Source: Janibacter anophelis NBRC 107843 (lineage in GTDB: Bacteria > Actinomycetota > Actinomycetes > Actinomycetales > Dermatophilaceae). From it: 39,786 bases of DNA. The first letter of the stretch is position 1. Each line of letters begins with the position of its first letter. The stretch is from contig NZ_BCSQ01000031.1 in NCBI RefSeq assembly GCF_001570945.1, positions 1 to 39,786 of the forward strand, given 5' to 3'. The notes under the pieces are model-generated. The model had not been told where the DNA came from and did no database searches. It saw only the letters and a list, made by a program, of their open reading frames with translations. Made by a program: the position numbers and the translations under genes. Positions 1 through 39,786 of this stretch are shown in pieces.

Positions 1-2
1 CC

Positions 3-1445
3 GCGGCGGCTGCCCGTGGCTACCCGCAGGAGGACGTCGACCGCATCTGGGCGGTGCTCGCCGCCTTCGCCTCCTTCGGGTTCTGCAAGGCGCACGCCGC
101 CGCCTTCGCCATGCCGACCTACCAGTCGGCCTGGCTCAAGGCGCACCACCCGGCCGCCTTCCTCGCCGGGGTGCTCACCCACGACCCCGGCATGTACCCC
201 AAGCGGCTGCTGCTCGAGGAGGCCCGCTCGCTCGGCGTGAGCATCCTCGGGGTCGACGTCAACGCGAGCACGGGGGAGTACCTCGTCGAGCCGGCGCCCG
301 TGCCCGCCCCGCCGCCCGACGACCCGGACCTGCCCGACGGGTCGGCCTGGGGGATCCGCCTCTCGCTCGCGGACGTCAAGGGCATGAGCGAAGGGGAGAT
401 CGCCCGCGTCGTCGCCGGCGCGCCGTACGACTCGCTCGCCGACTTCTGGCAGCGGGCGCAGGTCAGCCGGCCGGTCGTCGAGCGGCTCGTGCTCGTCGGG
501 GCCTTCGACTCCGTGCACGGCACGGGCGCCGGGCACGGCGGCCCGGGGCTCGGCAGCCGCGGGCGGCTGACCCGGCGTGACCTGCTGCTGCACGTCGCCG
601 AGCTCGACCGGTGGACGCGGGCGGCGGCGACGGGACGCTCGCGAGGACGGTCGAGGGGTCGCGTGTCCTCGGGGCCGCGGCGTCCCGAGGCGCCGGCGTG
701 GGCCGCCGGCCAGCCGGGGGCGCAGCAGGTGCGCACGAGCACGGTCGCTCCGGTGGCGAGCCAGCTGACCCTCGACCTCGGCGACTCCCCGGAGCTCGGC
801 GAGGGCGTCGGCCTGCCCGAGATGAGCGTCCCCGACCAGGTGAGCGCCGAGCTGGAGATCCTCGGGCTGGACGCCTCGCGGCACGTCATGGACTTCTACG
901 CGCCGATGCTCCAGGCGCTCGGGGTGACCCGCAGCGCCGACCTGCTCTCGGTGCGCAGCGGCGCTCAGATCCTCGCCGCCGGGGTCAAGGTCGCGACCCA
1001 GACCCCACCGATCCGGTCCGGGCGCCGGGTCGTCTTCCTCACCGTCGACGACGCGAGCGGACCGGTCGACGCGACCTTCTTCGAGGACGTGCAGGGGCCC
1101 TACGCGGCGACGGTCTTCCACTCCTGGCTGCTGCTCGTGCGCGGCACGATCCGCCGCGCCGGGCCGCGTGGTGTCTCGGTGCTCGCCTCCGGGGCGTGGG
1201 AGCTGTCGACGCTGTGGGAGGCGTGGCAGCGCGGCGGGCTGCCCGCGGTCCATGCCGCCCTCGACGAGGCCGACGAGCTCGCCCGGGCCCGCGACGCCGC
1301 GCACCAGCAGCCGGCCGGGCACCGGGTGCTCGTGCACGCCTCGGGGTTCAGGCAGTCGCCGTGGGCCGACACCCGCCCCGCCGGCTCCGGCGTGCAGCCC
1401 CCGCGCAAGTTGTGGCACTCCTCGCCCGGCAGCTCCGGCCACTGA
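3..1445 (+). CDS. dnaE2: Error-prone DNA polymerase III alpha subunit DnaE2, 3' part only
   Basis: This is the C-terminal part (about 480 residues) of a C-family DNA polymerase that enters the window from the left; the first complete codon is at base 3. The segment FASFGFCKAHAAAFAMPTYQ followed by SAWLKAHHPAAFLAGVL is the conserved end of the polymerase core. A helix-hairpin-helix region follows (MSEGEIARVVAG... LVLVGAFDS), then a basic low-complexity stretch, and an OB-fold (GVKVATQTPPIRSGRRVVFLTVDD). SQLTLDLG near base 770 resembles a beta-clamp-binding motif. DnaE2 (ImuC) works with ImuA'/ImuB in damage-induced mutagenesis in actinobacteria. Those partner genes, if present, would be upstream of the window. 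The short OB-containing tail and this ending favour DnaE2 over the replicative DnaE1. The family call is secure; the missing N-terminus prevents checking catalytic aspartates. Confidence 0.93.
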   Translation, partial: AAAARGYPQEDVDRIWAVLAAFASFGFCKAHAAAFAMPTYQSAWLKAHHPAAFLAGVLTHDPGMYPKRLLLEEARSLGVSILGVDVNASTGEYLVEPAPVPAPPPDDPDLPDGSAWGIRLSLADVKGMSEGEIARVVAGAPYDSLADFWQRAQVSRPVVERLVLVGAFDSVHGTGAGHGGPGLGSRGRLTRRDLLLHVAELDRWTRAAATGRSRGRSRGRVSSGPRRPEAPAWAAGQPGAQQVRTSTVAPVASQLTLDLGDSPELGEGVGLPEMSVPDQVSAELEILGLDASRHVMDFYAPMLQALGVTRSADLLSVRSGAQILAAGVKVATQTPPIRSGRRVVFLTVDDASGPVDATFFEDVQGPYAATVFHSWLLLVRGTIRRAGPRGVSVLASGAWELSTLWEAWQRGGLPAVHAALDEADELARARDAAHQQPAGHRVLVHASGFRQSPWADTRPAGSGVQPPRKLWHSSPGSSGH

Positions 1446-1484
1446 CGGGCGCAGACCCGCCGGGTCAGCCCCCTTCGCCCTGGG

Positions 1485-1542
1485 TCGATGTATCCCCGAC
1501 CGGATAGTCGGTCGCAGGTACCTCGACCCCGAGCGGGGAGGC
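1485..1542. repeat. 58-bp intergenic repeat, copy 1
   Basis: This copy lies 40 nt after the dnaE2 stop codon and matches 1949-2006 at 56 of 58 positions. The unit carries an inner inverted repeat (CCGAC-CGGATA-GTCGG) and outer arms TCGATGTA / TACCTCGA, which are imperfect in this copy. Because each copy follows a stop codon, a terminator or REP-like role is possible. Confidence 0.85.
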
Positions 1543-1581
1543 GCAGCGGGTGTTGGTGGCGACCTGTACTTGAATGTCCAC

Positions 1582-1941
1582 ATGGATGACTTGGCGCTGA
1601 TCACGGTCCTGGACCTCGAGCGCGAGCTGCAGTCGCCACAGACGCGGGCCGATGCCGGGCGTCTGCGCGACCTCATCGCCCCGGACTTCGAGGAGGTCGG
1701 GGCGTCTGGTCGGGTCTGGGACCGCGACTCGATCCTTGCGATGCTCGAGTCGGAGTCCGCGGACCCCGACTTGTCGACCATCGAGATCGACGACCTGCGA
1801 GCCCGGGTCATCGCACCGAGCGTCATCAGGGTCTCGTGGACGTCGGCCCAGGGGGAGCGCCGCGCGCGACGCACGTCGATCTGGTGCGAGCGGGATGGAG
1901 GCTGGCGCCAGGTCCATCACCAGGGGACTCTCCTCACCTGA
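1582..1941 (+). CDS. Small NTF2-like (SnoaL/DUF4440-type) protein
   Basis: This gene encodes 119 residues, MDDLALITVLDLERELQS..., containing the recognisable DUF4440 pattern of a helical start (LERELQSPQTRADAGRLRDL), then IAPDFEEVGASGRVWDRDSI, then strands ending VSWTSAQGERRARRTSIWC and GGWRQVHHQGTLL. Members fold as a small alpha+beta barrel and many are of unknown function; some are domains of steroid isomerase-like enzymes. No catalytic residues can be assigned here. The reading frame stays open upstream, but the first ATG is at 1582; no good Shine-Dalgarno is seen, so TTG at 1570 is an alternative start. The gene sits exactly between two copies of a 58-bp repeat, separating dnaE2 from the methyltransferase gene. 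Confidence 0.75.
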   Translation: MDDLALITVLDLERELQSPQTRADAGRLRDLIAPDFEEVGASGRVWDRDSILAMLESESADPDLSTIEIDDLRARVIAPSVIRVSWTSAQGERRARRTSIWCERDGGWRQVHHQGTLLT

Positions 1942-1948
1942 CGGTGGA

Positions 1949-2006: not shown

Positions 2007-2031
2007 CGAAGGGGGTGTCGGGGGCGGCGAC

Positions 2032-2830: not shown

Positions 2831-4099
2831 ATGAGCCGGCGTCAGTACCGGCCCCCACCGCGGGTCGGCGACGGACCACCCGACGACACCGGGTGCACGA
2901 TCCTGCACGTCGACATGGACGCCTTCTTCGCCTCGGCGACCCTGCTGGCGCATCCCGAGCTCGTCGGCACGCCCGTCATCATCGGTGGGGGCAACCGCGG
3001 CGTCGTGCTGTCGGCCACCTACGAGGCCCGGGCCTTCGGCGTGGCCTCCGCCATGCCGATGGGCCGTGCCCGACGGCTGTGCCCCCAGGCGACGATCCTG
3101 CCCCCCGACCACGAGCTCTACTCCCGGATCTCCGCGGCGGTCATGGCCACCTTCGCCGACATCACCCCCTTCGTCGAGCCGTTGAGCAGTGACGAGGCCT
3201 TCCTCGACGTCGCCGGCGCGGTGCGGCTCATGGGGTCGCCGGCCACGATCGCCCAGCGGATCCGGGACACGGTCGCCGACGAGCAGGGCATCACCTGCTC
3301 CGTGGGGGTCGCGAGCACGAAGTTCGTCGCCAAGCTCGCCTCCGGCCTGGCCAAGCCCGACGGGCTGCTCGTCATCCCGGCCGACGAGGTCGTCACCTTC
3401 GTCCAGCAACTGCCCGTGGGGGCCCTGTGGGGGGTGGGGGACCGGACCGAGGAGGCCCTGGCCCGCCTGGGGCTCAAGACCGTCGCCGACATCGCCCACA
3501 CCCCGCGCGCGACCCTCGTGCGCGCGCTCGGGGAGGCCACCGGCGCCCACCTGCACGACCTCGCGTGGGGGCGCGACCCACGCTCGGTCGAGCCCGTCCG
3601 GCGCGAACGCAGCATCGGCAACGAGCGCACCTTCGGCCACGACGTCGACGACCCCGAGGTGGTCCACCGAACCCTGCTCGGTCTCGCCGACAAGGCGGCC
3701 TCCCGGCTGCGGGCGGCCGGGCTCGTCGGCCGCACGGTGAGCATCAAGGTGCGCTTCGCCGACTTCACGACGATCACCCGCTCCCGCTCCCTTCGCGACA
3801 GCACGGACGTCTCCCGCGACATCGCCGCCACGGCCCGTGAGCTCTACGACGCGCTCGGCCTGCAGCGCGCCCGCGTGCGCCTCGTCGGGGTCCGGGTCGA
3901 GCAGCTCTCGGAGGCGTCGTCGACGCCGGTCCAGGTGGCCCTCGACGAGCCCGAGCACGGATGGCGGGACGCCGACCGGGCCGTCGATCGGGCGAGCGCA
4001 CGCTTCGGCAGCGGCAGCGTGCGCCCGGCCAGCCTGCTCTCGGACCGCAAGCCGCGGGACGGCCGACCTACCGCCGACCGCGGCCGCGACCTAGACTGA
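2831..4099 (+). CDS. dinB: DNA polymerase IV (Y-family, DinB)
   Basis: This is a 422-residue translesion polymerase. The first catalytic motif is LHVDMDAFFAS (about residues 25-35) and the second is PLSSDEAFLDV (about 117-127), supplying the metal-binding Asp and Asp-Glu. The steric-gate region reads DMDAFFA, with Phe as usual. CSVGVASTKFVAKLASGLAKPDG is the conserved palm segment, GVGDRTEEALARLG is the helix-hairpin-helix thumb, and a little-finger domain follows (RSIGNERTF ... VSIKVRFADF). The C-terminus (VQVALDEPEHGWRDADRAVD...) lacks a clear QLxLF clamp-binding motif, which is odd because many DinB proteins end in one. It follows a methyltransferase gene closely and lies about 1.4 kb downstream of dnaE2, another mutagenic polymerase gene. 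The start at 2831 has no obvious Shine-Dalgarno. Confidence 0.95.
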   Translation: MSRRQYRPPPRVGDGPPDDTGCTILHVDMDAFFASATLLAHPELVGTPVIIGGGNRGVVLSATYEARAFGVASAMPMGRARRLCPQATILPPDHELYSRISAAVMATFADITPFVEPLSSDEAFLDVAGAVRLMGSPATIAQRIRDTVADEQGITCSVGVASTKFVAKLASGLAKPDGLLVIPADEVVTFVQQLPVGALWGVGDRTEEALARLGLKTVADIAHTPRATLVRALGEATGAHLHDLAWGRDPRSVEPVRRERSIGNERTFGHDVDDPEVVHRTLLGLADKAASRLRAAGLVGRTVSIKVRFADFTTITRSRSLRDSTDVSRDIAATARELYDALGLQRARVRLVGVRVEQLSEASSTPVQVALDEPEHGWRDADRAVDRASARFGSGSVRPASLLSDRKPRDGRPTADRGRDLD

Positions 4100-4176: not shown

Positions 4177-4608
4177 GTGGCGCTGTCAGAGCGCGAGCGG
4201 CAGATGCTCGAGGAGATGGAAGAGGCCATCCGGGCCGAAGATCCTCGCTTCGCCTCGCAGATGAACGGTTCGGGTTCCGAACGCACCGATCGCCGCCGGG
4301 TGGTGCTCGGTGTCATCGGCGCGATCGCCGGCCTCGGTCTGGTCCTGCTCGGCATCAACACCAACCTGTGGGTCGGCGTCGCCGGCTTCGTCCTCATCGT
4401 CGGCTCCGTCGCGCTGGCCCTCACCCCGGGCGGGGGCGGCCGCTCGCACGGGCTCGGGCTGGTGGGTGACGACGGCACGGTCCGCCGCCCGCGCACCCCG
4501 CACAAGCGCCGGGCGAAGGGGGGCCGCAAGGCCACCGGTCACGGCACCTTCATGGAGCGGCTCGAGCAGCGCTGGGAGAAGCGCCGCCAGGACGGTCAGG
4601 GCTGGTAG
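4177..4608 (+). CDS. DUF3040 small membrane protein
   Basis: This gene encodes 143 residues starting MALSERERQMLEEMEEAI, the signature start of the DUF3040 family, followed by RAEDPRFASQM. Two hydrophobic segments (VVLGVIGAIAGLGLVLLGI and LWVGVAGFVLIVGSVALAL, about residues 46-85) suggest two membrane spans with a basic cytoplasmic tail rich in Arg/Lys. Function is unknown. In many actinobacteria a DUF3040 gene lies just upstream of mraZ and the division/cell-wall cluster; here the next sequence is a tandem repeat and a convergent gene, so that link is not present locally. The GTG start at 4177 is supported by AGGGAGG 5 nt upstream. Confidence 0.88.
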   Translation: MALSERERQMLEEMEEAIRAEDPRFASQMNGSGSERTDRRRVVLGVIGAIAGLGLVLLGINTNLWVGVAGFVLIVGSVALALTPGGGGRSHGLGLVGDDGTVRRPRTPHKRRAKGGRKATGHGTFMERLEQRWEKRRQDGQGW

Positions 4609-5769: not shown

Positions 5770-5813
5770 GCGAGACGTCCACTCCCACGACGACGACAAG
5801 GCAGGCCCCCTTC

Positions 5814-7949
5814 GTGCCTCCGGCAGCCACCACCGCCAAGAAGACCGCGAGCCGCAAGTCCGCGCAGGACTACACCGCGCACCACCTGCAGGTCCTCGAG
5901 GGGTTGGAGGCCGTCCGCAAGCGGCCGGGCATGTACATCGGCTCGACCGACCAGCGCGGCCTCATGCACTGCATGTGGGAGATCATCGACAACGCGGTCG
6001 ACGAGGCCCTCGGCGGCCACGGTGACCGCATCGAGATCGTCCTGCACGACGACGGCTCGGTCGAGGTCCGCGACAACGGTCGCGGCATCCCCGTCGACAT
6101 CGAGCCGCGCACCGGCCTGACCGGTGTCGAGGTCGTCTACACCAAGCTGCACGCGGGTGGGAAGTTCGGCGGCGGCTCCTACACCGCCTCCGGTGGCCTG
6201 CACGGTGTCGGTGCCTCAGTCGTCAACGCCCTGTCCGCCCGCCTGGACGTCGAGGTCGACCGTGCGGGCAAGACCTATGCGATGAGCTTCCGCCGGGGCG
6301 AGCCCGGCACCTTCTCCGACGCGGCGGGGGCGAAGGGGGCGAAGTCGCCCGAGCACGAGTTCATCGCCTACGACAAGGGCAGCGAGCTCGAGGTCGTCGG
6401 CAAGGCCAAGCGCGGCGTGACCGGCACCCGAGTGCGCTACTGGGCCGACCCGCAGATCTTCCTCAAGGGCGCGACGATCGACCGCGAGGCCCTCACGGCG
6501 CGGGCCCGGCAGACCTCCTTCCTCGTGCCCGGACTGACGCTCGTCGTGCGCGACCAGCGCGAGTCCGAGCCGGTCGAGGAGGTCTTCGTCCACGACGGCG
6601 GCATCAGTGAGTTCGTCGACTTCCTGGCCCCCGACGCCCCGGTCACCGACGTGTGGCGCCTGGAGGGCACCGGGACCTTCACCGAGACCGTGCCGGTGCT
6701 CGACGCCAAGGGACACATGACCCCGACCGAGGTCGAGCGCGAGTGCGGGGTCGACATCGCGCTGCGGTGGGGGACCGGCTACGACGCCAAGCTGTCCTCC
6801 TTCGTCAACATCATCGCCACGCCCAAGGGCGGCACCCACGTCGCCGGCTTCGAGCAGGCGCTGCTCAAGGTCTTCCGCAAGCAGCTCGAGACCAACGCCC
6901 GCAAGCTCAAGGTCGGCAACGACAAGGTCGACAAGGACGACATCCTCGCCGGCCTGACCGCCGTCGTCACCGTGCGCCTCGCCGAGCCACAGTTCGAGGG
7001 CCAGACCAAGGAGGTGCTCGGCACCAGCGCCGTGCGTTCGATCGTCGGCAAGGTCGTCGAGACCGAGCTGACGGCGCTGCTGACCTCGACCAAGCGCGGC
7101 GACAAGCAGATGGCCGGCCAGCTGCTCGAAAAGGTCGTCGCCGAGATGAAGTCGCGCATCTCCGCCCGGCTGCACAAGGAGACCCAGCGCCGCAAGAACG
7201 CCCTGGAGACCTCGTCCCTGCCGCCGAAGCTGCGCGACTGCCGCAGCAACGACGTCGAGGCCACCGAGCTGTTCATCGTCGAGGGTGACTCGGCCATGGG
7301 CACGGCCAAGGAGGCCCGCAACAGCGAGTTCCAGGCGCTGCTGCCCATCCGCGGCAAGATCCTCAACGTGCAAAAGGCCGCGGTCGGCGACATGCTCAAG
7401 AACGCCGAGTGCGCCTCGATCATCCAGGTCCTCGGCGCCGGCTCAGGGCGCAGCTTCGACGTCGACGCCGCCCGCTACGGCAAGGTCATCATCATGACCG
7501 ACGCCGACGTCGACGGCGCCCACATCCGCACGCTGCTGCTCACCCTGTTCTTCCGCTACATGCGGCCGCTCGTCGAGGCGGGCAAGGTCTTCGCCGCCGT
7601 GCCCCCGCTGCACCGCATCGAGGTGGTCAACCCCGGCTCGAAGAAGAACGAGCTGATCTACACCTACTCCGAGGCCGAGATGCGCAAGAAGCTGTCCGCG
7701 CTCAACTCGCGGGGCAAGAACATCAAGCAGCCGATCCAGCGGTACAAGGGTCTGGGCGAGATGGACGCCGACCAGCTCGCCGAGACGACGATGGACCCGC
7801 GCCACCGGATGCTGCGGCGGGTGACGACCGCGGACCTGGAGGCCGCCGAGGAGGTCTTCGAGCTGCTCATGGGCAAGGACGTCGACCCCCGCCGCGAGTT
7901 CATCGTCTCCTCGGCCGACCAGCTCGACCGCGAGCGGATCGACGCCTGA
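5814..7949 (+). CDS. parE: DNA topoisomerase IV subunit B (ParE, GyrB-type ATPase)
   Basis: This 711-residue protein is the ATPase subunit of a type IIA topoisomerase. The GHKL ATPase starts [33 protein letters not shown] holds the catalytic Glu and Asn, and DNGRGIPV and [14 protein letters not shown] are the ATP-lid motifs. The TOPRIM domain has EGDSAMG (about residues 490-496) and [10 protein letters not shown] (about 562-571), which bind Mg2+ for cleavage. The length, about 710, suits either GyrB or actinobacterial ParE. ParE is preferred because a parC-like A subunit lies nearby on the opposite strand and gyrB/gyrA usually sit near oriC. The GTG start at 5814 gives a normal N-terminus; the open frame continues upstream but without family similarity. 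ParC and ParE together decatenate daughter chromosomes. Confidence 0.92.
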
Positions 7950-9532: not shown

Positions 9533-9573
9533 CGAAGGGGGCGGAGCCGGATCACCCGGCTCCGCCCCCTTCG
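9533..9573. terminator. Strong bidirectional terminator hairpin
   Basis: A perfect 18-bp stem (9533-9550 pairing with 9556-9573) with loop ATCAC begins 12 nt after the permease stop codon. Its outer ends are CGAAGGGGG and CCCCCTTCG, an inverted pair of the oligomer that recurs throughout the window. parC converges on it from the other side. Confidence 0.85.
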
Positions 9574-9583: not shown

Positions 9584-9647
9584 GGCGCGCAGGCGCCCGG
9601 GGAGATGCGCGCGTGGGCGCGCAGGCGCCCGGGGAGATGCGCGGGTG
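9584..9647. repeat. Two tandem 32-bp repeats
   Basis: GGCGCGCAGGCGCCCGGGGA followed by GATGCGCGCGTG occurs at 9584-9615 and 9616-9647 with one difference. The CCCGGGGAGATGC core resembles half of the palindromes at 23641 and 31481. It lies between the terminator and the parC stop codon. Confidence 0.8.
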
Positions 9648-9651
9648 GGGG

Positions 9652-12087
9652 TCAGAGGGAGCCGATGCCGCCGATGACGGCGCTGGCGGGGGTGCCGGAG
9701 CCGTCGCGGCGGCCTTCGGCCTCGGGGAGGGTGATCGCCACGCCGTTGGGCTGCGCCGCCCGGGCGCCGGCGCGGCCGACCCAGGCGAGGACCAGGGCGT
9801 CCTCGCCCTTGAGGAACCGGTGCGCCCGCACGCCCGCGGTCGCCCGTCCCTTGCCCGGGTACTCGGCGAAGGGGGTGACCTTCCACGCGCCCGCGTCGGT
9901 CCCGGGCAGCGCGTCGGACGCTCCCGAGACGGTGACGACGATGTTGTCGACGCCCGGGTCGACCGCGCCGAAGAAGACGACACGGGCCCCGTCGCCGAGG
10001 CGGATACCGGCGATGCCGCCGCCCGAGCGGCCCTGCGGGCGCACGTCGGCCGCCGAGAAGTGCAGCAGGCTCGCCTGGTCGGTGACGAAGACCAGCTCCT
10101 CGTCACCGGTGCGCAGCTCGACGGCACCGACGACCCGGTCGCCCTCCTTGAGGGAGATGGCTTCCCAGGAGTTGCCCTTCGGGTAGTCGGTCGTCACCCG
10201 CTTGACCACACCGGCGGCGGTGCCGAGGGCCAGGCCGGGGGAGTCGGTCGACAGGCTCATCAGCGTCAGCGGGGCCTCGTCGCCCGGCAGGTCGACATAG
10301 GCCGCCAGGGGCGCGCCGCCGGAGAGGTTGGGCGCGCCGTTGGAGGGCGGCAGCGTCGGCAGCTCGAGGGCACCCAACCGGACCATGCGGCCGGCAGAGG
10401 TGACGACGGCGACCTCACCGCGTGCGGTCGTGCGCACCGCCGCGACGACGGCGTCGTGCTTGGCCCGACCGCCCTCGGTGCTCAGCGGCTCGGCGTCGCT
10501 CGTGCGCGCGAGCAGCCCGGTGCTCGACAGCAGCACCCAGCACGGGTCGTCAGCGACCTCGAGCGGCGTGCTGGCCGCGGCGGGCGCACCGGCCGACTCG
10601 AGCAGGACCGTCCGGCGCGCGTCGCCGTGCTTCTTGGCGACCTCGGCGAGCTCGCTCGAGACGAGCCGGGTGAGCACCTTGTCGTCGCCGAGGATCTCCT
10701 CGAGGGCGGCGATCTGCTCGAGCAGCTCGCCCTGCTCCTTCTCCAGCTCGAGGCGGGAGAACTTCGTCAGGCGTCGCAGCTGCAGGTCGAGGATGAAGCT
10801 CGCCTGGACCTCGGACAGGTCGAAGACCTGCTGCAGGCGCTCGCGGGCAACCGTCGCGTCGTCGCTGGAGCGGATGACCTGGATGACCTCGTCGATGTCG
10901 AGGATCGCGATGAGCAGGCCCTCGACGAGGTGCAGCCGCTCCCGCCGCTTCATCAGGCGGTACTCGCTGCGCCGCCGCACGACCTCGCGGCGGAAGTCGA
11001 CGTAGACCGTGAGCAGCTCCTTCAGGCCCATGGTCCGCGGCTGGCCGTCGACGAGCGCGACGTTGTTGATGGAGAAGGAGTCCTCCATCGGGGTGAGCTT
11101 GTACAGCTGCTCGAGGACGGCCTCGGGGTTGAAGCCGTTCTTGATCTCGATGACCAGCTGCATGCCGGACTCACGGTCGGTGAGGTCCTTGACGTCGGCG
11201 ATGCCCTGCAGCTTCTTCGCCTGGACCGCGTCCTTGATCTTCTCGATGACCTTTTCGGGGCCGACGAGGTAGGGCAGCTCGGTGACGATGATCCCCTGGC
11301 GGCGCGGCGAGACCTTGTCAATCCGCGTCGTCGCGCGCGTGCGGAAGCTCCCGCGCCCGGTGAGGTAGGCGTCGCGGATGCCGTCGAGCCCGACGATCCG
11401 CCCACCGCCGGGCAGGTCGGGCCCGGGGACGAACTTCATCAGGTCGTCCAGGCTCGCGTCGGGGTGGGTCAGCAGGTGCCGGACGGCGCCGATGACCTCG
11501 ACGAGGTTGTGCGGCGGCATGTTGGTCGCCATGCCGACCGCGATGCCGGTCGTGCCGTTGACGAGGAGGTTGGGATAGGCCGAAGGGAGGACCTCCGGCT
11601 GGAGCAGCTGGTCGTCGTAGTTGGGGACGAAGGGGACGGTGTCCTCGTCGAGCCCGGTCACCATGAGCAGCGCGGCCGGGGCCATGCGCGCCTCGGTGTA
11701 CCGGCTGGCGGCCGGCCCGTCGTCGAGGGAGCCGAAGTTGCCGTGGCCGTCGACGAGCGGCAGGCGCATCGAGAAGGGCTGGGCCAGGCGCACGAGGGCG
11801 TCGTAGATCGCCGTGTCACCGTGCGGGTGGTACTTGCCCATGACCTCGCCGACGACGCGGGAGGACTTCACGTGGCCGCGCTCGGGGCGCAGGCCCATCT
11901 CGCTCATCGAGTAGAGGATCCGGCGGTGCACGGGCTTGAGGCCGTCGCGGGCGTCGGGCAGCGCCCGGGCGTGGATCACCGAGTAGCTGTACTCGAGGAA
12001 GGCATTGCGCATCTCGTCCGCGACGTCGATGTCGACGATCCGCTCCGGGGCGTCGGGCGGGGGAGAGGCGGCGGGACGGCGGGCCAT
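9652..12087 (-). CDS. parC: DNA topoisomerase IV subunit A (ParC, GyrA-type)
   Basis: This 811-residue protein is the DNA cleavage/religation subunit. The N-terminus has [20 protein letters not shown] and [30 protein letters not shown] is the quinolone-resistance-determining region. The active-site tyrosine is Tyr130 in [12 protein letters not shown] coiled-coil arm follows ([19 protein letters not shown]), then a beta-pinwheel C-terminal domain. The GyrA box (QRRGGKG) is absent; the nearest segment is [12 protein letters not shown], degenerate. That supports topoisomerase IV rather than gyrase. ATG at 12087 has GAGGAG about 11 nt upstream; a much longer open frame continues upstream but is antisense to the next gene. 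parE is 1.7 kb away on the plus strand, an arrangement like the nearby parE and parC of Streptomyces. Confidence 0.92.
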
Positions 12088-12219
12088 GCTGGCTGTGGAC
12101 TCCTCGTGGGGACGGTGCTCGAGCCCCGCCATCCTCCCCCCTTCGCCCGTGCCACCGCGGTACCGACACACGTGCGGGCGACCACGTGCCGGCGCCGCCG
12201 CCGTGGCAGGATTGAGGCC

Positions 12220-14922: not shown

Positions 14923-15519
14923 ATGCCCGCACCTGCTGACCTCACGGCGATCACCCTCCCGCCGGTCCTCACCGCCGACATCGAGCGGGCGGGGTACTAC
15001 CCGGCCCTCGTCGCGGACGTCATCAAGGCGGCGGTCGGCGCCGAAGAGGTCCACGGGCACCTCGTGCACCAGGAGACGACCTTCGACCAGGACACGGTGC
15101 GTCGGCACATCACGGTCTTCGTGCGCACGAGCACCCGGCTCGTCGTCGCGCACGCCGACGACTACCCGGACCACCTCTCCGGCTCGCAGGAGATCGCGAC
15201 CGCCACGACCGAGTGCATCCCGCTCTCGTCCGTGCGTGGCGTCATGCTCACCCACGTCGTCGGCGACCCCTCCAGCTATGTCCCCGGCTCGCTCGGCCGC
15301 GAGCTGACCCTCACCGTCGGCTGGGGCGCGGTCAGCCGGGTCGACCTGCTGCCGGCCCAGTGCAATGACCCCGAGTGCGAAGGGGGCGACCACGGCTACG
15401 AGGGCACGATCACCAGCGACGACATCGCCCTACGCATCAGTGCCGAGGCCGAGGGCCGGGTGGCGCTCGACCGGGCGATGGAGTTCGCCCGGGACCTCTC
15501 GGCCAGCATCGGGCACTGA
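14923..15519 (+). CDS. DUF5998 conserved actinobacterial protein
   Basis: This gene encodes 198 residues, MPAPADLTAITLPPVLTADI... ending FARDLSASIGH. The pattern VRRHITVFVRTSTRLVVAHADD, VRGVMLTHVV and LTVGWG matches the DUF5998 family, found in actinobacteria next to a phosphatase-superfamily gene. It has no membrane segments or known catalytic motif; function is unknown. CNDPECEGGDHGYEG holds two cysteines spaced CxxxxC and might bind a metal, but this is unsupported. ATG at 14923 is preferred over 14914 because CACAAT (14910-14915) fits a -10 box 7 nt upstream and overlaps the other candidate. The stop is 8 nt before the next gene, so the pair is probably an operon. Confidence 0.82.
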   Translation: MPAPADLTAITLPPVLTADIERAGYYPALVADVIKAAVGAEEVHGHLVHQETTFDQDTVRRHITVFVRTSTRLVVAHADDYPDHLSGSQEIATATTECIPLSSVRGVMLTHVVGDPSSYVPGSLGRELTLTVGWGAVSRVDLLPAQCNDPECEGGDHGYEGTITSDDIALRISAEAEGRVALDRAMEFARDLSASIGH

Positions 15520-23584: not shown

Positions 23585-23620
23585 CCCCCTTCGTCCGGGA
23601 CTGACCCCCTTCGTCCGGCC
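23581..23620. repeat. Tandem 20-bp repeat spanning the DUF3159 stop codon
   Basis: CTGACCCCCTTCGTCCGG recurs at 23581 and 23601, 20 bp apart. Both copies contain CCCCCTTCG. The first copy supplies the stop codon TGA. Confidence 0.85.
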
Positions 23621-23640
23621 CGAGGTCGCCGCCGGACCGC

Positions 23641-23744
23641 GCATCTCCCCGGGGAAATGCAACCACTTGACGTCAAGAGACTGCATCTGCCCGGGGAAAT
23701 GCAACCACTTGACGTCGAGAGACTGCATTGCCGTAGGGCAATGC
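23641..23744. repeat. Tandem 42-bp palindrome-rich repeat between convergent genes
   Basis: Two 42-bp units (23641-23682 and 23683-23724) differ at 2 positions. A partial third (23725-23744) forms a perfect 8-bp stem (GCATTGCC-GTAG-GGCAATGC). Each full unit has a near-palindrome such as GCATCTCCCCGGGGAAATGC and the motif CTTGACGTCAAG (23666-23677; CTTGACGTCGAG at 23708). The region ends 9 bp before the stop of the RCK gene and could terminate both transcripts. Confidence 0.9.
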
Positions 23745-23753
23745 AGGGTCCGG

Positions 23754-24440
23754 TCAGGGGGTGGGGCGTTTGCGGCTGCGGCCGCCGGGGCGCATCATCG
23801 CCTCGAGCTCCGGCTCGGCCTCTGCGGTGGTGAGCAGGAGCAGCTCGTCGTGCGCCTCGAGGGAGTCGTCGGCGCTCGGGCCGATCGGTCGGCCGTCGCG
23901 GATGATGCCGACGAGCAGCGTGTCCTGGGGGAAGGCGATGTCACCGACGCGCCGACCCACGTTGGGGTTGTCGGCCGGCAGGGTGATCTCGGCCATCGCC
24001 GCGTTGCCCTGCTGGAAGTCGAAGATGCGCACGAGGTCGCCGACGCTCACGGCCTCCTCGACCAGCGCCGTCATCAGGCGTGGCGTCGACACCGCGACGT
24101 CGACGCCCCACGACTCGTCGAACATCCACTCGTTCTTGGGGTTGTTGACCCGGGCGACGGTGCGCGGCACACCGAACTCGGTCTTGGCGAGCAGCGAGAC
24201 GACGAGGTTGGCCTTGTCGTCGCCGGTCGCGCAGACGACGACATCGCAGGTCTCGATCTGCGCCTCCTGCAGCGTGGACAGCTCGCAGGCGTCGCCGGAG
24301 AGCCAGCTGGCCTCGGCGACCTTGGCGACACGGGTCTCGTTGGCGTCCTTGTCGATGAGCAGGACGGAGTGCTCGTTCTGCAGCAACTCCTGGGCGATGG
24401 ACCGACCGACCGAGCCGGCTCCGATGATGGCGACGCGCAC
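23754..24440 (-). CDS. ceoC: RCK/TrkA-type potassium regulator, second subunit (CeoC-like)
   Basis: This gene encodes 228 residues. The N-terminal Rossmann RCK domain is VAIIGAGSVGRSIAQELLQ, ending in an acidic LLIDKDANE; SWLSGDACELSTL and VVVCATGDDKANLVVSLLA follow the TrkA_N pattern. The C-terminal TrkA_C domain is about residues 135-215 (AMAEITLPADNPNVGRRVGD... LLVGIIRDGRPIGPSAD). It probably senses nucleotides and gates or regulates a K+ transporter in the membrane. It is 2 bp after its sibling gene, so both come from one divergent transcript opposite a KimA-type K+ importer. Its start codon is GTG. Confidence 0.88.
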   Translation of the reverse strand: MRVAIIGAGSVGRSIAQELLQNEHSVLLIDKDANETRVAKVAEASWLSGDACELSTLQEAQIETCDVVVCATGDDKANLVVSLLAKTEFGVPRTVARVNNPKNEWMFDESWGVDVAVSTPRLMTALVEEAVSVGDLVRIFDFQQGNAAMAEITLPADNPNVGRRVGDIAFPQDTLLVGIIRDGRPIGPSADDSLEAHDELLLLTTAEAEPELEAMMRPGGRSRKRPTP

Positions 24441-27158: not shown

Positions 27159-28462
27159 CGGGTCCGGAGGCGGACGAACTGACGGTGGGCGACGAGGTCG
27201 ACGTGGAGGTCGGCCCCATCGCGCACGGCGGGCACTGCGTGGCCCGCCACGAGGGCCGGGTGCTCTTCGTAAGGCACACCCTGCCCGGCGAGCGGGTGCG
27301 CGCCCGGATCACCGAAGGGGGTCCCGGTGACCGATTCCTGCGGGCGGACGCCGTCGAGGTCCTCACCGCCTCCCCGGACCGCGTGCCGGTGCGGTGTCCC
27401 GTCGCCGGGCCCGGCAGGTGCGGCGGCTGCGACTTCCAGCACGTGAGCACCGAGCACCAGCGCCGGCTGAAGGCCGACGTCGTCGCCGAGCAGCTGCAGC
27501 GGCTCGCCGGCATCGAGCGCGAGGTCCTCGTCGAACCGCTCGACGACGAGGACGGGCTGCGCTACCGCACCCGGGTCGAGTTCGCCGTGGTGGACGGTCG
27601 GGTCGGCCTGCGCCGGCACCGCAGCCACGAGGTCGTGCCGGTCACCGGGTGCCCGATCGCCGTGCCCGAGATCGACGAGGCGCTCGTGGAGACCCTCGCC
27701 GACGTGGAGCGCACCCGCGGCGAGCTCGACGGCATCAGCGCCCTCGACATCGTGGTCCCGTCCGCGGAGGCGGACACCGTCGTCGTCGAGGTCCCCACCG
27801 AGGAGCCCACCCCGCCGATCGCCATCACCGAGCGGGTCGCGACGCCGGCGGGGGAGCGGGTACTGGGTGTGGACGCCCGGGGATTCTGGCAGGTGCACCG
27901 CGATGCCCCGCGCGCGTTCGTCGGCGCCGTCCTGGCCGCCGCTGACGTGCGTCCGGGGGAGCGGGTCCTCGACCTGTACTCCGGTGTGGGCCTGCTGTCC
28001 GTCCCGCTCGCCGAGGCGGTCGGCCCCGACGGCCAGCTGATCGCGGTCGAGTCCGACCGTCGCGCGACCGAGCACCTGCGCGACAACCTCGCGGCGACCC
28101 CGCAGGCACTCGTCGTCTGCGGTCGGGTCGACGACCTCTTCGGTGTCCCGCGCAGGGGGCGCCGTCGCGGCCCGCGTCGCCCCGCCCGCTCCGACCTGCT
28201 GCCCCCGAGCGCCGACGTCGTCGTCCTCGATCCACCCCGCACCGGGGCGGGCCGCGGGGTCGTGGAGGCGCTGACCTCCCTTCGTCCCCGGCGCCTGGTG
28301 TACGTCGCCTGCGACCCGGCGGCGCTCGCCCGGGACACCGGCTACCTGACCGGGCTCGGGTACGACCTGACGGGCCTGCGGGCCCTGGACGCCTTCCCCA
28401 TGACGCACCACGTCGAGTGCGTGGCGACCTTCGAGCCGAAGGGGGAGGACGCGCGCCCGTGA
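27155..28462 (+). CDS. TRAM-domain class I SAM RNA methyltransferase (TrmA/RlmD family)
   Basis: This gene encodes 435 residues. An N-terminal TRAM domain (VGDEVDVEVGPIAHGGHCVA, residues 11-30 onward) binds RNA. VRCPVAGPGRCGGCDFQHVS near residue 80-95 has the CxxC and nearby cysteines of the family's [4Fe-4S] cluster. The methyltransferase domain has DLYSGVGLLSVPLAEAV (SAM motif I), DVVVLDPPRTGAGRGVVEAL (motif IV) and VYVACDPAALARDTGYL (about 384-400), which contains the catalytic Cys of uracil-C5 methylation. It probably makes 5-methyluridine in rRNA or tRNA, but the exact target is open. ATG at 27155 overlaps the permease stop (ATGA). Confidence 0.9.
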   Translation: MTGPEADELTVGDEVDVEVGPIAHGGHCVARHEGRVLFVRHTLPGERVRARITEGGPGDRFLRADAVEVLTASPDRVPVRCPVAGPGRCGGCDFQHVSTEHQRRLKADVVAEQLQRLAGIEREVLVEPLDDEDGLRYRTRVEFAVVDGRVGLRRHRSHEVVPVTGCPIAVPEIDEALVETLADVERTRGELDGISALDIVVPSAEADTVVVEVPTEEPTPPIAITERVATPAGERVLGVDARGFWQVHRDAPRAFVGAVLAAADVRPGERVLDLYSGVGLLSVPLAEAVGPDGQLIAVESDRRATEHLRDNLAATPQALVVCGRVDDLFGVPRRGRRRGPRRPARSDLLPPSADVVVLDPPRTGAGRGVVEALTSLRPRRLVYVACDPAALARDTGYLTGLGYDLTGLRALDAFPMTHHVECVATFEPKGEDARP

Positions 28463-31420: not shown

Positions 31421-31460
31421 CGAAGGGGGTCGTCCACCATCCGGTGGGCGGCCCCCTTCG
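31421..31460. terminator. acnA terminator with CGAAGGGGG inverted pair
   Basis: CGAAGGGGG (31421-31429) pairs with CCCCCTTCG (31452-31460) around an inner 7-bp stem GTCCACC/GGTGGGC. It lies about 45 nt after the acnA stop codon. Confidence 0.75.
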
Positions 31461-31543: not shown

Positions 31544-31987
31544 ATGTTCGACCAGACCTCCCGTCCGCCGGTGCGGACGGCGCTGCCCGGGTCGCCGGGG
31601 GCGCGGACCGCTGCGGCCGGGGCGAAGGGGGGACCCCCTGGGTGGCCGGACCGCGTGCCACCACCCGCGGTGCGGGGGTGGCAGTCGGCGGCGGTCTCGT
31701 GGCTGCTCGACCTGTGCCCGCCCGACTACCGCGGGCATGCGGTGCTGCGTCGGCACCCGGCCGCGCTGGCCTGGCTCGCCGACCTGCACGTCGCGGCGCA
31801 GGTCGACGCGATGCGGCAGGCATACCGGACGGTGCGCGTCGACCTGGCGGAGTCGTTGCCCGAGGGCACGATCGACGCCCTGCTCGTGGCGCTCGAGCAC
31901 GAGGGCCTGCGGCTGCGGTCCGCGCAGCGGAGCATCCTGCTCATCCGGGAGGCGCTCGACGGGAGCGTCTTCGTCGACCGGCTGTGA
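31544..31987 (+). CDS. Conserved hypothetical protein upstream of dxs
   Basis: This gene encodes 147 residues. A Pro/Gly/Ala-rich N-terminal third (RPPVRTALPGSPGARTAAAG) is probably disordered. From about residue 46 a helical domain begins: WQSAAVSWLLDLCPPDYRGH, AVLRRHPAALAWLADLHVAA, QVDAMRQAYRTVRVDLAESL and LRLRSAQRSILLIREALDGS. No family function or catalytic motif is recognised, but the well-formed hydrophobic pattern and an upstream TACACT box argue that it is real. It is on the same strand as dxs, about 100 bp upstream, with an inverted repeat between them. Confidence 0.75.
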   Translation: MFDQTSRPPVRTALPGSPGARTAAAGAKGGPPGWPDRVPPPAVRGWQSAAVSWLLDLCPPDYRGHAVLRRHPAALAWLADLHVAAQVDAMRQAYRTVRVDLAESLPEGTIDALLVALEHEGLRLRSAQRSILLIREALDGSVFVDRL

Positions 31988-32030
31988 CCCCCTTCGTCCG
32001 ACGTGGTGACAGGCTGGGTAGGTCACAGCC
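31980..32030. repeat. 10-bp inverted repeat before dxs
   Basis: GGCTGTGACC (31980-31989, overlapping the preceding stop codon) is complementary to GGTCACAGCC (32021-32030) with 31 nt between. The right arm ends at the predicted -35 region of dxs. It could be a terminator without a U-tract, or an operator. Confidence 0.5.
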
Positions 32031-36188: not shown

Positions 36189-36264
36189 AGAAGCGAAGGT
36201 CGTCGTCGGGACCTCCCCTTCGACATGTCGGAAGCCGGTCAGGCCTCGTCATGCTGCCAACGCA

Positions 36265-38337
36265 TCAGGCCGGGACGCTGGCCACACCCTTCGGCAGGAA
36301 GCGCTGCCCGGTGACCTTCTCCGAGACGCCCTCACGGTCCAGGAGCGGCGTGAGGCCACCGTTCCAGAATTGGAAGCCGGCGCCGGTGATCATCGCGAGG
36401 TCGATGTCCATCGGGGCCTGTGCGACACCGTCGTCGAGCATCGTGCGCACCTCCTCGGCGAGGACGCCGAGGACCCGCTCACGGACCTGCTGCGCGGTCA
36501 GCTCAACCGGCGACTCGGGGGCGGTGAGCAGCTCGGCCACACCTTCGTCGTCGTAGGAGCGCTTACCGGCCTCGACGAGCGCCTTGAGGTTGGGCGAGAC
36601 GTAGAAGCGCTCGCCGAGCTCACGGTGCAGCGTCTCGCTGTTGTGCAGCGCGATCGCCGGGCCGACGAGCCCGACGAGGACCAGCGGCGGCATCGGGGCC
36701 AGGCCCGCGATGCCCTCGTTTGCGACCTCGACCGCAGTGCCCTCGTCGACGATCTTGGAGAACTCGCCCATGAAGCGGCCGAGCAGTCGGTTGGCGATGA
36801 AGGAGGGGCTGTCCTTGACGAGGATGCAGGTCTTCTTCAGGCCCTTGCCGGTGGCGAAGGCCGTCGCGAGCGCCGCGTCGTCCGTCCGCTCGCCCGGGAT
36901 GATCTCGAGCAGCGGCATGACGGCCACCGGGTTGAAGAAGTGGAAGCCCACGACCCGCTCCGGGTGCTCCAGGTCTGACGCCATCTCGGTGATCGACAGC
37001 GACGAGGTGTTGGAGGCGAGCACGCACTCGGGCGTGACGACCTGCTCGACCTCGGCCCAGACCTTCTTCTTGACGCCCATCTCCTCGAAGACGGCCTCGA
37101 TGACGAAGTCCGCGTCGGCGAAGCCCTCCTTGCTCGTGGAGCCGGTGATGAGGGCCTTGAGCTGGTTGGCCTTGTCCTGGGTGATCTTGCCCTTGGCGAG
37201 GGACTTGTCGATCTCGCCGTGGACGTAGGCGACGCCCTTGTCCACGCGCTCCTGGTCGAGGTCGGTCATGATGACCGGCACCTTGAGCGAGCGGATGAAG
37301 AGCATCGCCAGCTGGCTGGCCATGAGACCGGCGCCGACGATGCCGACCTTGCCGACCGGGCGGGCCAGCGACTTGTCGGGGGCACCCGCCGGTCGCTTCG
37401 CGCGCTTCTGCACGAGGTCGAAGGAGTACAGGCCGGCGCGCAGCTCGTCACCCATGAGGAGGTCAGCCAGGGCCTCGTCCTCGGCGGCGAAGGCGGCGTC
37501 GCGCTCAGCGGTGCGCGCGGCCGTGACGAGCTCGATGGCCCGGTAGGGCGAAGGGGACTTCCCCGCGGTCTTCGCGTCGGCCAGCTGCGTGGCGGCCGCG
37601 GCGGCGGCCTCCCAGACGGCGGCGTCGTCGCTCACCGGCTCGCGCTCGACCTTCGTCTCGCCGGTGAGGACTCCAGCCGCCCAGATGATCGACTGCTCGA
37701 GGAAGTCGGCGCCGTCGAGGAGCGCGTCGGCGAGGCCGAGCTTCGCCGCGGCCGGGCCGTTCAGCATCCGGTTGGTGTTGAGCGGGTTCTCGACGATGAC
37801 CTTGAGGGCCTTCTCCGGGCCGACGAGGCGGGGGAGCAGGTAGCAGCCGCCCCAGCCGGGCACGAGACCGAGGAAGACCTCGGGCAGCGCGATGGCCGGC
37901 ACGGCCTTGCTCATCGTGCGGTAGTCGCAGGCCAGCGACAGTTCGACGCCACCGCCCATCGCCGCGCCGTTGACGAAGGCGAAGGTCGGCACTGGCAGGT
38001 CCATGACCGCCGCGTAGGCGGCGTGGCCGGCGCGGGCGATCTCGAGGGCCTGCTCACGGGAGGCGACGCCCGGGACGCCGGAGAGGTCGGCGCCGACGGC
38101 GAAGATGAAGGGCTTGCCCGTGACGGCGACGGCGACGATCTCGCCGGCCTCCGCGCGCTGCTGCAGCGTCGCGACGGCGGCGCTCAGACCGGCCATGCCC
38201 TCGAGGCCGAAGGTGTTGGGCTTGGTGTGGTCGTGGCCGTTGTCCAGCGTGATGAGGGCCAGCGTGCCGCCGTCGGCGGGGAGCTGGACGTCCTGGACGA
38301 GGGCGCGGGTGACGACCTCGGGCTTGGGCTCGCTCAT
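36265..38337 (-). CDS. fadB: Fatty-acid oxidation multifunctional protein: enoyl-CoA hydratase and 3-hydroxyacyl-CoA dehydrogenase
   Basis: This gene encodes 690 residues. Residues about 1-240 are a crotonase (enoyl-CoA hydratase) domain: TFAFVNGAAMGGGVELSLAC (oxyanion loop) and LPEVFLGLVPGWGGCYLLPR with the catalytic Glu. From about 330 is the NAD-binding domain VGIVGAGLMASQLAMLFIRS ending VIMTDLDQERVDKG, and RVVGFHFFNPVAVMPLLEII carries the catalytic His. The C-terminal dehydrogenase domains follow (NRLLGRFMGEFSKIVDEG). Together with FadA it performs steps 2-4 of beta-oxidation. ATG at 38337 follows AGGAGA and is 2 bp after the fadA stop, so fadA-fadB is one operon. The glycine-rich loop ends MASQLA rather than MGSGIA, which I have seen in other actinobacterial FadB proteins. 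Confidence 0.95.
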   Translation of the reverse strand: MSEPKPEVVTRALVQDVQLPADGGTLALITLDNGHDHTKPNTFGLEGMAGLSAAVATLQQRAEAGEIVAVAVTGKPFIFAVGADLSGVPGVASREQALEIARAGHAAYAAVMDLPVPTFAFVNGAAMGGGVELSLACDYRTMSKAVPAIALPEVFLGLVPGWGGCYLLPRLVGPEKALKVIVENPLNTNRMLNGPAAAKLGLADALLDGADFLEQSIIWAAGVLTGETKVEREPVSDDAAVWEAAAAAATQLADAKTAGKSPSPYRAIELVTAARTAERDAAFAAEDEALADLLMGDELRAGLYSFDLVQKRAKRPAGAPDKSLARPVGKVGIVGAGLMASQLAMLFIRSLKVPVIMTDLDQERVDKGVAYVHGEIDKSLAKGKITQDKANQLKALITGSTSKEGFADADFVIEAVFEEMGVKKKVWAEVEQVVTPECVLASNTSSLSITEMASDLEHPERVVGFHFFNPVAVMPLLEIIPGERTDDAALATAFATGKGLKKTCILVKDSPSFIANRLLGRFMGEFSKIVDEGTAVEVANEGIAGLAPMPPLVLVGLVGPAIALHNSETLHRELGERFYVSPNLKALVEAGKRSYDDEGVAELLTAPESPVELTAQQVRERVLGVLAEEVRTMLDDGVAQAPMDIDLAMITGAGFQFWNGGLTPLLDREGVSEKVTGQRFLPKGVASVPA

Positions 38338-38339
38338 GC

Positions 38340-39551
38340 TCAGTTCTCCTTGCCGTAGTCGGCGTGGTGCGGGTTTTCCCAGATGACGGCGCCACCCATG
38401 CCGATGCCGATGCACATGGCGGTCATGCCGTAGCGGACGCTCGGGTCCTCGGCGAACTGGCGGGCCAGCTGGGTCATCAGACGCACGCCGGAGGAAGCCA
38501 GCGGGTGGCCGGTCGCGATGGCACCGCCGTAGCGGTTGACCTTGTCGGAGTCGTCGGCGATGCCGAAGTGCTCGAGGAAGGCGAGCACCTGCACGGCGAA
38601 GGCCTCGTTGAGCTCGAAGAGGTCGATGTCGTCGATGGTCAGGCCGGCCTTGGCCAGGGCCTTCTCGGCGGCGGGGACCGGGCCGTAACCCATGACCTCC
38701 GGCTCGACGCCGACGAAGGCGAACTCGACCAGACGCATGCCGACGGGCAGACCGAGCTCCTGCGCGGTCTCCTCGGCCGCGAGGATGCAGGCCGTCGCGC
38801 CGTCGTTGAGGCCGGCCGCATTGCCGGCGGTGACGTTGCCGTGCGGGCGGAAGGGGGTCTTCAGGCCCTTGAGGGACTCGAGCGTCGTCTGCGGGCGCGG
38901 CGGCTCGTCGGCGGTGGCCAGCCCCCAGCCCTTGTCGGCGTGACGGGTGGCGGTCGGGACGAGGTCGGGCTGGATCTTGCCGTCCTCGTAGGCCTGGGCG
39001 AGCTTGCGCTGGCTGTTGACCGCGAACTCGTCCGAGCGCTCCTTGGTGAGCGTCGGGTAGCGGTCGTGCAGGTTTTCGGCCGTCTTGCCCATGACGAGCG
39101 CGGAGGGGTCGACGAGCTTTTCGGCGACGACGCGCGGGTTGGGGTCGACGCCCTCACCCATGGGGTGACGGCCCATGTGCTCGACGCCACCGGCGACGGC
39201 GACGTCGATGGAGCCGAAGGAGATGGCGCCGGCGATGTTGGTGACCGCGGTCATCGCGCCGGCGCACATGCGGTCGACGGAGTAGCCGGGGGTGGTGTTG
39301 GGCAGGCCCGAGAGGAGCGAGGCCATGCGGCCCAGGGTCAGTCCCTGGTCGCCGATCTGGGTCGTCGCGGCGATGGCGACCTCTTCGACCCGCTCCGGCG
39401 GCAGCTCGGGGTGGCGGCGCATGAGCTCGCGGATGCAGTTGATGACCAGGTCGTCGGCGCGGGTCTGGGCGTACATGCCCTTCTCCCCGGCCTTGCCGAA
39501 CGGCGTGCGAACGCCGTCGACGAAGACGACCTCACGTGAAGTGCGGGGCAC
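38340..39551 (-). CDS. fadA: Acetyl-CoA acyltransferase (3-ketoacyl-CoA thiolase)
   Basis: This 403-residue thiolase catalyses the last step of beta-oxidation. The nucleophile is Cys96 in VDRMCAGAMTAV; the second active-site block is NEAFAVQVLAF with Glu, then GGAIATGHPLASSGVRLM with the general base His, and MCIGIGMGGAVIWE with the second Cys. GNVTAGNAAGLNDGATACIL is the conserved loop. The start is GTG at 39551 (VPRTSREVVFVDGVRTPFGK), supported by GAGAGG about 6 nt upstream; an open frame continues 15 codons further. It is the first gene of the fadA-fadB operon and is preceded by a palindromic operator-like site. Confidence 0.95.
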   Translation of the reverse strand: MPRTSREVVFVDGVRTPFGKAGEKGMYAQTRADDLVINCIRELMRRHPELPPERVEEVAIAATTQIGDQGLTLGRMASLLSGLPNTTPGYSVDRMCAGAMTAVTNIAGAISFGSIDVAVAGGVEHMGRHPMGEGVDPNPRVVAEKLVDPSALVMGKTAENLHDRYPTLTKERSDEFAVNSQRKLAQAYEDGKIQPDLVPTATRHADKGWGLATADEPPRPQTTLESLKGLKTPFRPHGNVTAGNAAGLNDGATACILAAEETAQELGLPVGMRLVEFAFVGVEPEVMGYGPVPAAEKALAKAGLTIDDIDLFELNEAFAVQVLAFLEHFGIADDSDKVNRYGGAIATGHPLASSGVRLMTQLARQFAEDPSVRYGMTAMCIGIGMGGAVIWENPHHADYGKEN

Positions 39552-39613
39552 GGTGGGCCTCTCTGTCGTGGTGCAGGAGCAGCCGGGTGGTTCCACCCGA
39601 CGCCTCTGAGGCT

Positions 39614-39627
39614 ACTAAGCGCTTGCT
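39614..39627. promoter_or_regulatory. TetR-type operator candidate upstream of fadA
   Basis: On the minus strand AGCAAGCGCTTAGT fits AnCAAGnnCTTGnT, the consensus I know for KstR2-type TetR repressors, with one mismatch. It is 63 bp before the fadA start. A TetR regulator that responds to acyl-CoA is plausible; its gene is not in the window. Confidence 0.45.
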
Positions 39628-39680
39628 CACCTGCGACAGATGCGCCTCGCGTGACCCCGCCCACGTTCCACGTCCGGCCC

Positions 39681-39786
39681 GCTCCCTGAGGAGGCCGCCT
39701 GCGGCCGTCTTGCCCATCCGCTCCCTGAGGAGGCCGCCTGCGGCGTCCCCCTTCGCTCCCTGAGGAGGCCGCCTGCGGCCGTCTTG
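39681..39786. repeat. Tandem repeat cut by the right edge
   Basis: GCTCCCTGAGGAGGCCGCCT recurs at 39681, 39720 and 39755 (39- and 35-bp steps) with following CGGCCGTCTTG-type sequence. Each unit has complementary GGCCGC/GCGGCC arms. The array runs off the window. Confidence 0.85.

Follow-up and report, generated by a model that had tools for sequence, protein, structure and literature searches.

A short word that recurs on both strands of a bacterial chromosome raises the question of what keeps it there. The DNA analysed here, a stretch of 39,786 nucleotides (contig NZ_BCSQ01000031.1, positions 1 to 39,786; hereafter the window), is dotted with copies of the eight-base word CGAAGGGG, most of which are followed by G and so form the nine-base word CGAAGGGGG (word A). 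An earlier note on the window had described this excess as a possible DNA-uptake-like or chromosome-organising signal. The observation is confirmed and is larger than first noted. At the level of the genome, the pattern matches that of the uptake sequences of the Neisseriaceae and Pasteurellaceae in the features tested. In our judgement, held with moderate confidence, the most likely role of CGAAGGGGG is that of a DNA uptake sequence in Janibacter and in a second genus, g35; the preferential uptake, the receptor and the maintenance of copies are what we infer.

Abundance of the word in the window and the genome

The window has a GC content of 71.3% and holds 35 copies of CGAAGGGG (18 forward and 17 reverse), where the earlier note had counted about 34 (18 forward, 16 reverse); 100 dinucleotide-preserving shuffles gave a mean of 2.2 and a maximum of 7. 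The non-palindromic CGAAGGGGG, the top-ranked 9-mer of the window, occurs 28 times (13 + 15) instead of the 27 reported before. A Markov model of order 4 predicts 1.6 copies and one of order 5 predicts 7.4, a figure that is high because order 5 partly absorbs the word itself.

In the whole genome (3,308,605 bases in 124 contigs), CGAAGGGGG is found 935 times forward and 915 times reverse, which gives 1,850 copies or about 1 per 1.8 kb, against 15 + 11 = 26 for the control, the same pattern read backwards. A sample of 440 kb, comprising the window and 20 further stretches, contains 280 copies versus 12 expected at Markov order 3 and 91 at order 5. The earlier note had named a Markov model of order 5–6 as one that might explain the count; models of order 4 to 5 fail to do so.

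The extended consensus in the 440 kb is GRCGAAGGGGG, with G at position −2 (0.72), G or A at −1 (0.42 and 0.31) and G after the 8-mer (0.76). Near variants are over-represented too (CGAAGGGAG 77 versus 10, CGAAGGGGA 48 versus 7). Beyond about 3 bases the flanks hold no more than 0.13 bits at any position, with a slight C-richness some 5–9 bases downstream; a dispersed repeat or transposon end was therefore rejected.

Carriers of the word and other words in the family

Counts were made in 186 genomes of one family, which we take to be the Dermatophilaceae (GTDB); 162 of them have a completeness of 90% or more and a contamination of 5% or less. Word A is abundant in 19, namely all 16 genomes of genus g1, to which the window belongs, and all 3 of genus g35, with 797–1,939 copies divided near-equally between the strands. 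The remaining 167 genomes hold at most 80 copies, with controls of up to 50. The closest named record to the aconitase of the window is that of Janibacter indicus (95% identity), which falls inside the same aconitase clade and carries 11 copies of CGAAGGGG in 22.8 kb; g1 is therefore, by inference, Janibacter. In the one-gene tree of aconitase, the rows with word A all fall to the same side of a single branch (support 88/92), where g1 and g35 interleave and some rows without a counted word are placed as well.

Other genera sampled have other words. CGGCATAC (word B) reaches at least 390 copies in 107 of the 186 genomes, spread over 30 genera, with a maximum of 4,724 (hand count of the table); the reversed controls are lower in all 107, yet amount to 578 in G005, which has 1,660 copies. 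It is found in Knoellia flava (14 in 23 kb), K. locipacati (11 in 14 kb), K. aerolata (12 in 23 kb) and Phycicoccus elongatus (25 in 23 kb). The 19 word-A genomes contain only 7–41 copies of CGGCATAC, and in the 361 genomes of 18 other families within an order-wide sample of 396 it does not exceed 180 copies, near the control. CGGATGCCG (word C) has 968–2,347 copies in 7 of the 186 genomes, from 3 genera, and the next highest count is 448. Two genomes of genus g15, G036 and G037, are in a mixed state, with about 1,000 copies of CGGATGCCG and about 1,200 of CGGCATAC; in the two further g15 genomes the counts are 1,871 and 2,347 for CGGATGCCG and 288 and 361 for CGGCATAC. These two words resemble each other: CGTATGCCG, which is CGGCATAC on the opposite strand with its commonest flanking base (three sampled genomes), is one base off CGGATGCCG. 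No evident core links CGAAGGGGG to either of them. By the thresholds used, at least one of the three words is present in 131 of the 186 genomes.

CGATGCGGG was considered as a fourth word of the family and rejected, being high only in G082 of genus g31 (L131, L132), with 726 copies against 43–313 in the other 185 genomes; it is possibly a fourth word in that one species. Separately, CGGCGTAC is moderately enriched in G015 (L127, L128; 34 versus 5.6) and G088 (L133, L134; 42 versus 9.1), in 40 kb each. In G041 of genus g18 (L064, L065, L112–L114), CGGCATAC stands within a longer, strongly conserved context, approximately GCCGTATGCCGCTGRGC, and 15 of 32 sites are intergenic. In 23-kb loci of Arthrobacter and Paenarthrobacter (L174, L177, L180, L223), the palindrome CGACGTCG occurs at about 9 to 16 times the expected frequency.

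Placement of the copies

Placement was examined in 460 kb of genome G000 and 460 kb of its complete relative G063, with a home-made gene caller; the density of the 8-mer is about 1 per 1.2 kb. Intergenic sites number 85/384 and 113/396, that is 22–28% of all sites, in intergenic sequence that makes up only 8.4% and 7.8% of the samples (p < 1e-15), an enrichment of 2.6–3.7-fold. The others (299/384 and 283/396) fall within called genes and occur on both strands. Every one of the six coding frames is used, but unevenly, and least often frame 0 sense, as the rare codons CGA and AGG lead one to expect. Confinement to the region of the window or to codons for EGG and PF residues, which the earlier note had kept in view, is thus not what the genome displays. 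Intergenic density per kb is highest between convergent genes (4.6 in G000 and 5.6 in G063), followed by codirectional (2.1 and 2.8) and divergent ones (1.6 and 1.8), and the codirectional sites lean toward the stop of the upstream gene. An intergenic excess is seen also in genus g35 (25% and 30% of sites) and, in small samples, for the other words (22–47% of sites in 8–13% of the sequence).

Neighbours on opposite strands within 70 bp number 25 in G000 and 40 in G063, where a uniform density would give 11.2 and 11.9. Among the intergenic pairs, hairpin order outnumbers the other order by 7 to 4 in G000 and 22 to 4 in G063, in total 29 versus 8 (p 8e-4). Despite the intergenic enrichment and the pairing, most sites are single and genic.

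The sites of the window are given below by the coordinates of the 8-mer CGAAGGGG, CGAAGGGGG being a site with G next to it; gene calls are again home-made. Both inverted pairs of the earlier note, 9533/9573 and 31421/31460, are present, 12 and 47 bases past the ends of the permease and aconitase genes, as are its copies straight after stop codons (stops 23584 and 31987, sites 23586 and 31989). The open reading frame at 9613–14901 is doubtful in its first half, its Pfam matches starting only at residue 894.

389–396, forward: CGAAGGGG then A, genic
1470–1477, reverse: CGAAGGGGG, intergenic, 25 bases past the gene end at 1445
2007–2014, forward: CGAAGGGGG, intergenic
3166–3173, reverse: CGAAGGGGG, within an impB/mucB/samB-family (DinB-type) polymerase gene
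4514–4521, forward: CGAAGGGGG, genic
5807–5814, reverse: CGAAGGGGG, at the start, as called, of the gene for a type II topoisomerase B subunit
6331–6338, forward: CGAAGGGGG, within the same topoisomerase B-subunit gene
9533–9540, forward: CGAAGGGGG, left arm of an inverted pair, 12 bases past the permease gene end (9521)
9566–9573, reverse: CGAAGGGGG, right arm of inverted pair 9533/9573
9867–9874, forward: CGAAGGGGG, called genic, gene call doubtful
11628–11635, forward: CGAAGGGG then A, called genic, gene call doubtful
12138–12145, reverse: CGAAGGGGG, called genic, gene call doubtful
12984–12991, forward: CGAAGGGGG, genic
13989–13996, forward: CGAAGGGGG, genic
15378–15385, forward: CGAAGGGGG, genic
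15648–15655, reverse: CGAAGGGGG, genic
17480–17487, forward: CGAAGGGGG, intergenic, convergent genes on either side
17954–17961, reverse: CGAAGGGGG, genic
18918–18925, reverse: CGAAGGGGG, ferrochelatase gene
19181–19188, reverse: CGAAGGGGG, ferrochelatase gene
19685–19692, forward: CGAAGGGG then A, ferrochelatase gene
21364–21371, reverse: CGAAGGGGG, genic
21677–21684, forward: CGAAGGGG then A, genic
22168–22175, reverse: CGAAGGGG then C, genic
23586–23593, reverse: CGAAGGGGG, immediately past the stop codon at 23584, first of a tandem pair 20 bases apart
23606–23613, reverse: CGAAGGGGG, second member of the tandem pair with 23586
27313–27320, forward: CGAAGGGGG, genic
28437–28444, forward: CGAAGGGGG, genic, at a gene 3' end
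31421–31428, forward: CGAAGGGGG, left arm of an inverted pair, 47 bases past the aconitase gene end (31374)
31453–31460, reverse: CGAAGGGGG, right arm of inverted pair 31421/31460
31623–31630, forward: CGAAGGGGG, intergenic
31989–31996, reverse: CGAAGGGGG, immediately past the stop codon at 31987
36215–36222, reverse: CGAAGGGG then A, intergenic
37549–37556, forward: CGAAGGGG then A, 3-hydroxyacyl-CoA dehydrogenase gene
39748–39755, reverse: CGAAGGGGG, intergenic by gene call

A second repeat lies in the window at 23640–23760, with imperfect copies 42 bases apart around CCCGGGGAAATGC (23648 and 23690). One half of it, GCATTTCCCC, has 20 copies in the 440 kb and in places forms the full palindrome GCATTTCCCCGGGGAAATGC; G053 seemingly has its own version of this repeat, around GCAACTGCCCGGGC.

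Polarity, conservation and foreign DNA

The contig of G063 opens with genes read as dnaA, dnaN, recF, gyrB and gyrA. With the terminus taken as opposite the origin, 199/368 sites (54%, confidence interval 49–59%, p 0.13; 21 stretches) are on the leading strand. The balance of orientations, which had been held against an FtsK-type motif in the window, holds also relative to the origin in a complete relative and speaks against a polar motif of the FtsK/KOPS (FtsK-orienting polar sequence) kind, a candidate that is not supported.

Of 73 sites of G000 compared with G063, 47 are unchanged, versus 358/1,072 for 8-mers matched in composition (p 2e-7); for J. indicus the figures are 9/13 and 90/237 (p 0.04). 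The only gap of more than 10 kb in both samples is in L105 of G063, from the stretch edge to 10,580 (10.6 kb), whereas about 0.07 such gaps are expected by chance (hand calculation). This motif-free island has 67% GC versus 75% alongside and holds restriction-modification genes (a C5 DNA methylase, a Vsr nuclease and an Eco29kI-type nuclease), as expected if it were acquired DNA without the word. No PF04860 phage portal gene was found in the 16 genomes of g1, so these offered no prophage material in which depletion could be measured.

Competence genes

ComEC is present in 180/186 genomes of the family, the helix-hairpin-helix family HHH_3 (ComEA-type, not specific for ComEA) in 182/186, of which 179 above cut-off, and the Tad minor-pilin family TIGR03816 in 183/186 at E 0.01 or better, of which 170 above cut-off. 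In G000 a ComEA-like gene (SLBB and helix-hairpin-helix) adjoins the ComEC gene, and G063 has a Tad locus with Flp, TadE and a TadF-like gene. Secretion ATPases occur in 11/11 genomes, and the pilin genes examined are of the Tad type only. In Micrococcus luteus, genes of the tad cluster are needed for transformation (PMC4322843). The presence or absence of competence genes is uninformative as a discriminator, since they are near-universal with or without a word. G008, G083 and G113, which have background CGGCATAC beside CGGCATAC-rich congeners, match ComEC, HHH_3 and TIGR03816, and loss of competence is thus not shown there.

Among 47 genomes in which TadE was found, an extra C-terminal Cys of TadE occurs in 7/7 of the word-A clade (L103, L106, L108, L271–L274) and 1/40 of the others (G164), and the Flp end EALG[IL]R in 7/7 word-A rows and 0/40 others (by eye). 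These differences sit in one clade and perhaps reflect one event, so that a covariation of the TadE Cys and the Flp C-terminus with a receptor is a lead only.

Discussion

If CGAAGGGGG is an uptake sequence, a DNA-binding competence subunit at the cell surface, perhaps a TadE/F-type minor pilin or ComEA, would prefer DNA bearing the word. DNA of relatives would then enter the cell and recombine with the chromosome more frequently than foreign DNA, and through repeated biased uptake and recombination copies would accumulate and persist, being kept where they may be least harmful: in intergenic regions, toward the 3' ends of genes and as inverted pairs. CGGCATAC and CGGATGCCG would serve as dialects in other genera of the family. 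The proposal of an uptake-like signal made in the earlier note gains from the abundance, the strand balance, the placement and the dialects; its functional part stays at the level of a proposal. A word common to two genera, other words in other genera and the balance of strands all support an uptake sequence.

In the Neisseriaceae, too, the uptake sequence is a short word, present in one to several thousand copies, with intergenic use, terminator-linked inverted pairs, dialects in one family and a genome with two dialects (PMC3630211). Its dialects all share CTG according to the same source, whereas words A and B have no evident common core. The two systems also differ in that the words are unrelated in sequence, the carriers are Proteobacteria there and Actinomycetota here, and a receptor, ComP, has been demonstrated there, whereas here there are Tad-type pilin genes and a presumed preference of uptake. 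In the Pasteurellaceae, the density of the uptake sequence is of the order of 1 per 1–2 kb, like that of the word here. That sequence is also a highly genome-enriched word of about 9–12 bases, but it is another word in another phylum, for which the receptor ComN is predicted (PMC12616744). As in Micrococcus luteus, which is transformed through a Tad/Flp pilus, the genes found here include ComEC, ComEA-type and Tad genes, among them TadE- and TadF-like ones; the term 'uptake sequence' is absent from the main text of the M. luteus paper (PMC4322843).

Several points weigh against this interpretation. None of the three words is found in 55/186 genomes by the thresholds used, although some of these are moderately enriched in CGGCATAC (for example g3, g10 and g13, with 153–322 copies), and 40-kb samples of others, such as g2, g5, g11, g46 and g53, gave no strong word. 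ComEC, ComEA-type and Tad genes are equally present in genomes without any word; the genes permit an uptake sequence and do not prove it. J. massiliensis, placed elsewhere in the aconitase tree, is unenriched, with 2 copies in 22.8 kb. Conservation in sister species, a check proposed at the outset, stands for G063 and J. indicus and fails to give a clear excess in the more distant G053 (4/12 versus 48/201) and G056 (3/9 versus 54/170), in small comparisons. The excess of close opposite-strand pairs comes partly from intergenic clustering, which the uniform expectation ignores, and hairpin order in G000 alone (7 versus 4) is non-significant. Spacing is evener than random in G000 (coefficient of variation 0.83 versus 0.996, standard deviation 0.052) and marginally so in G063 (0.91 versus 0.992, standard deviation 0.054). 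The motif-free island is one case only, and for the family name together with natural competence nothing was found in the open-licence literature.

The word could instead be a Chi-like hotspot, which would regulate a helicase-nuclease of the RecBCD, AddAB or AdnAB type and be abundant since it protects the chromosome and aids repair. Chi is likewise short, G-rich, abundant and conserved, and the word here has 8–9 bases, a density of about 1 per 1.2 kb for the 8-mer, abundance throughout the genome, conservation in close relatives and an absence from the one foreign-looking island. We nevertheless consider a Chi-like role unlikely. Chi of E. coli is strongly skewed, with about 75% on the leading strand, whereas the word here has no replication polarity; hairpin-type pairs and clustering at gene 3' ends would have no evident reason, and CGGCATAC and CGGATGCCG, its sister words, lack the G-richness and vary between genera.

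A binding site for a protein that organises the chromosome or ends transcription, unconnected with DNA uptake, would account for the excess of copies at the 3' ends of genes and between convergent genes, and for the even spacing in G000. It is nonetheless improbable, given that most copies are genic, on either strand and in six frames, and lack polarity; for the word to change between genera, moreover, thousands of sites would have to be altered with no transfer process to copy them. A passive, highly iterated motif like HIP1 of cyanobacteria, produced by a mutation or repair bias or by a methylase, would fit the very high density and the occurrence of such words in many genera of one family. 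We regard it as quite unlikely: HIP1 is a palindrome and CGAAGGGGG is not, and mutation bias alone leads one to expect neither intergenic and 3'-end enrichment nor hairpin order. Codon usage or base composition, although it predicts the uneven frame counts, is contradicted by the 22–28% intergenic share, the use of all six frames, and counts of 1,850 versus 26 for the reversed word and 280 versus 91 even at order 5, and is extremely improbable.

Returning to an uptake sequence as the preferred explanation, a broader proposal, for and against which we see about equal grounds, is that of self-DNA recognition across this family of Actinomycetota. A Tad-pilus competence machine would read the word through a minor pilin, in at least three dialects (CGAAGGGGG, CGGCATAC and CGGATGCCG), with one complete replacement and two genomes in transition between CGGCATAC and CGGATGCCG. 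A paper of 2025 (PMC12616744) gives two families of Proteobacteria as the only ones with known uptake sequences, and no report of uptake-like words in actinobacteria was found among the open-licence PMC papers listed, preprints and subscription journals being outside this scope. If the proposal is true, uptake sequences would have arisen independently a third time and, in Gram-positive bacteria, for the first time. Such a third case, from a different phylum and combining dialects with Tad-type genes, would allow the idea that words evolve through receptor bias to be tested, and a change of dialect could become observable in G036 and G037, whose genomes are mixed. Donor DNA carrying the word of the host would provide a practical handle for transforming environmental actinobacteria. 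Taken as true, the proposal would also show how a bacterial family sets the borders of its own gene exchange.

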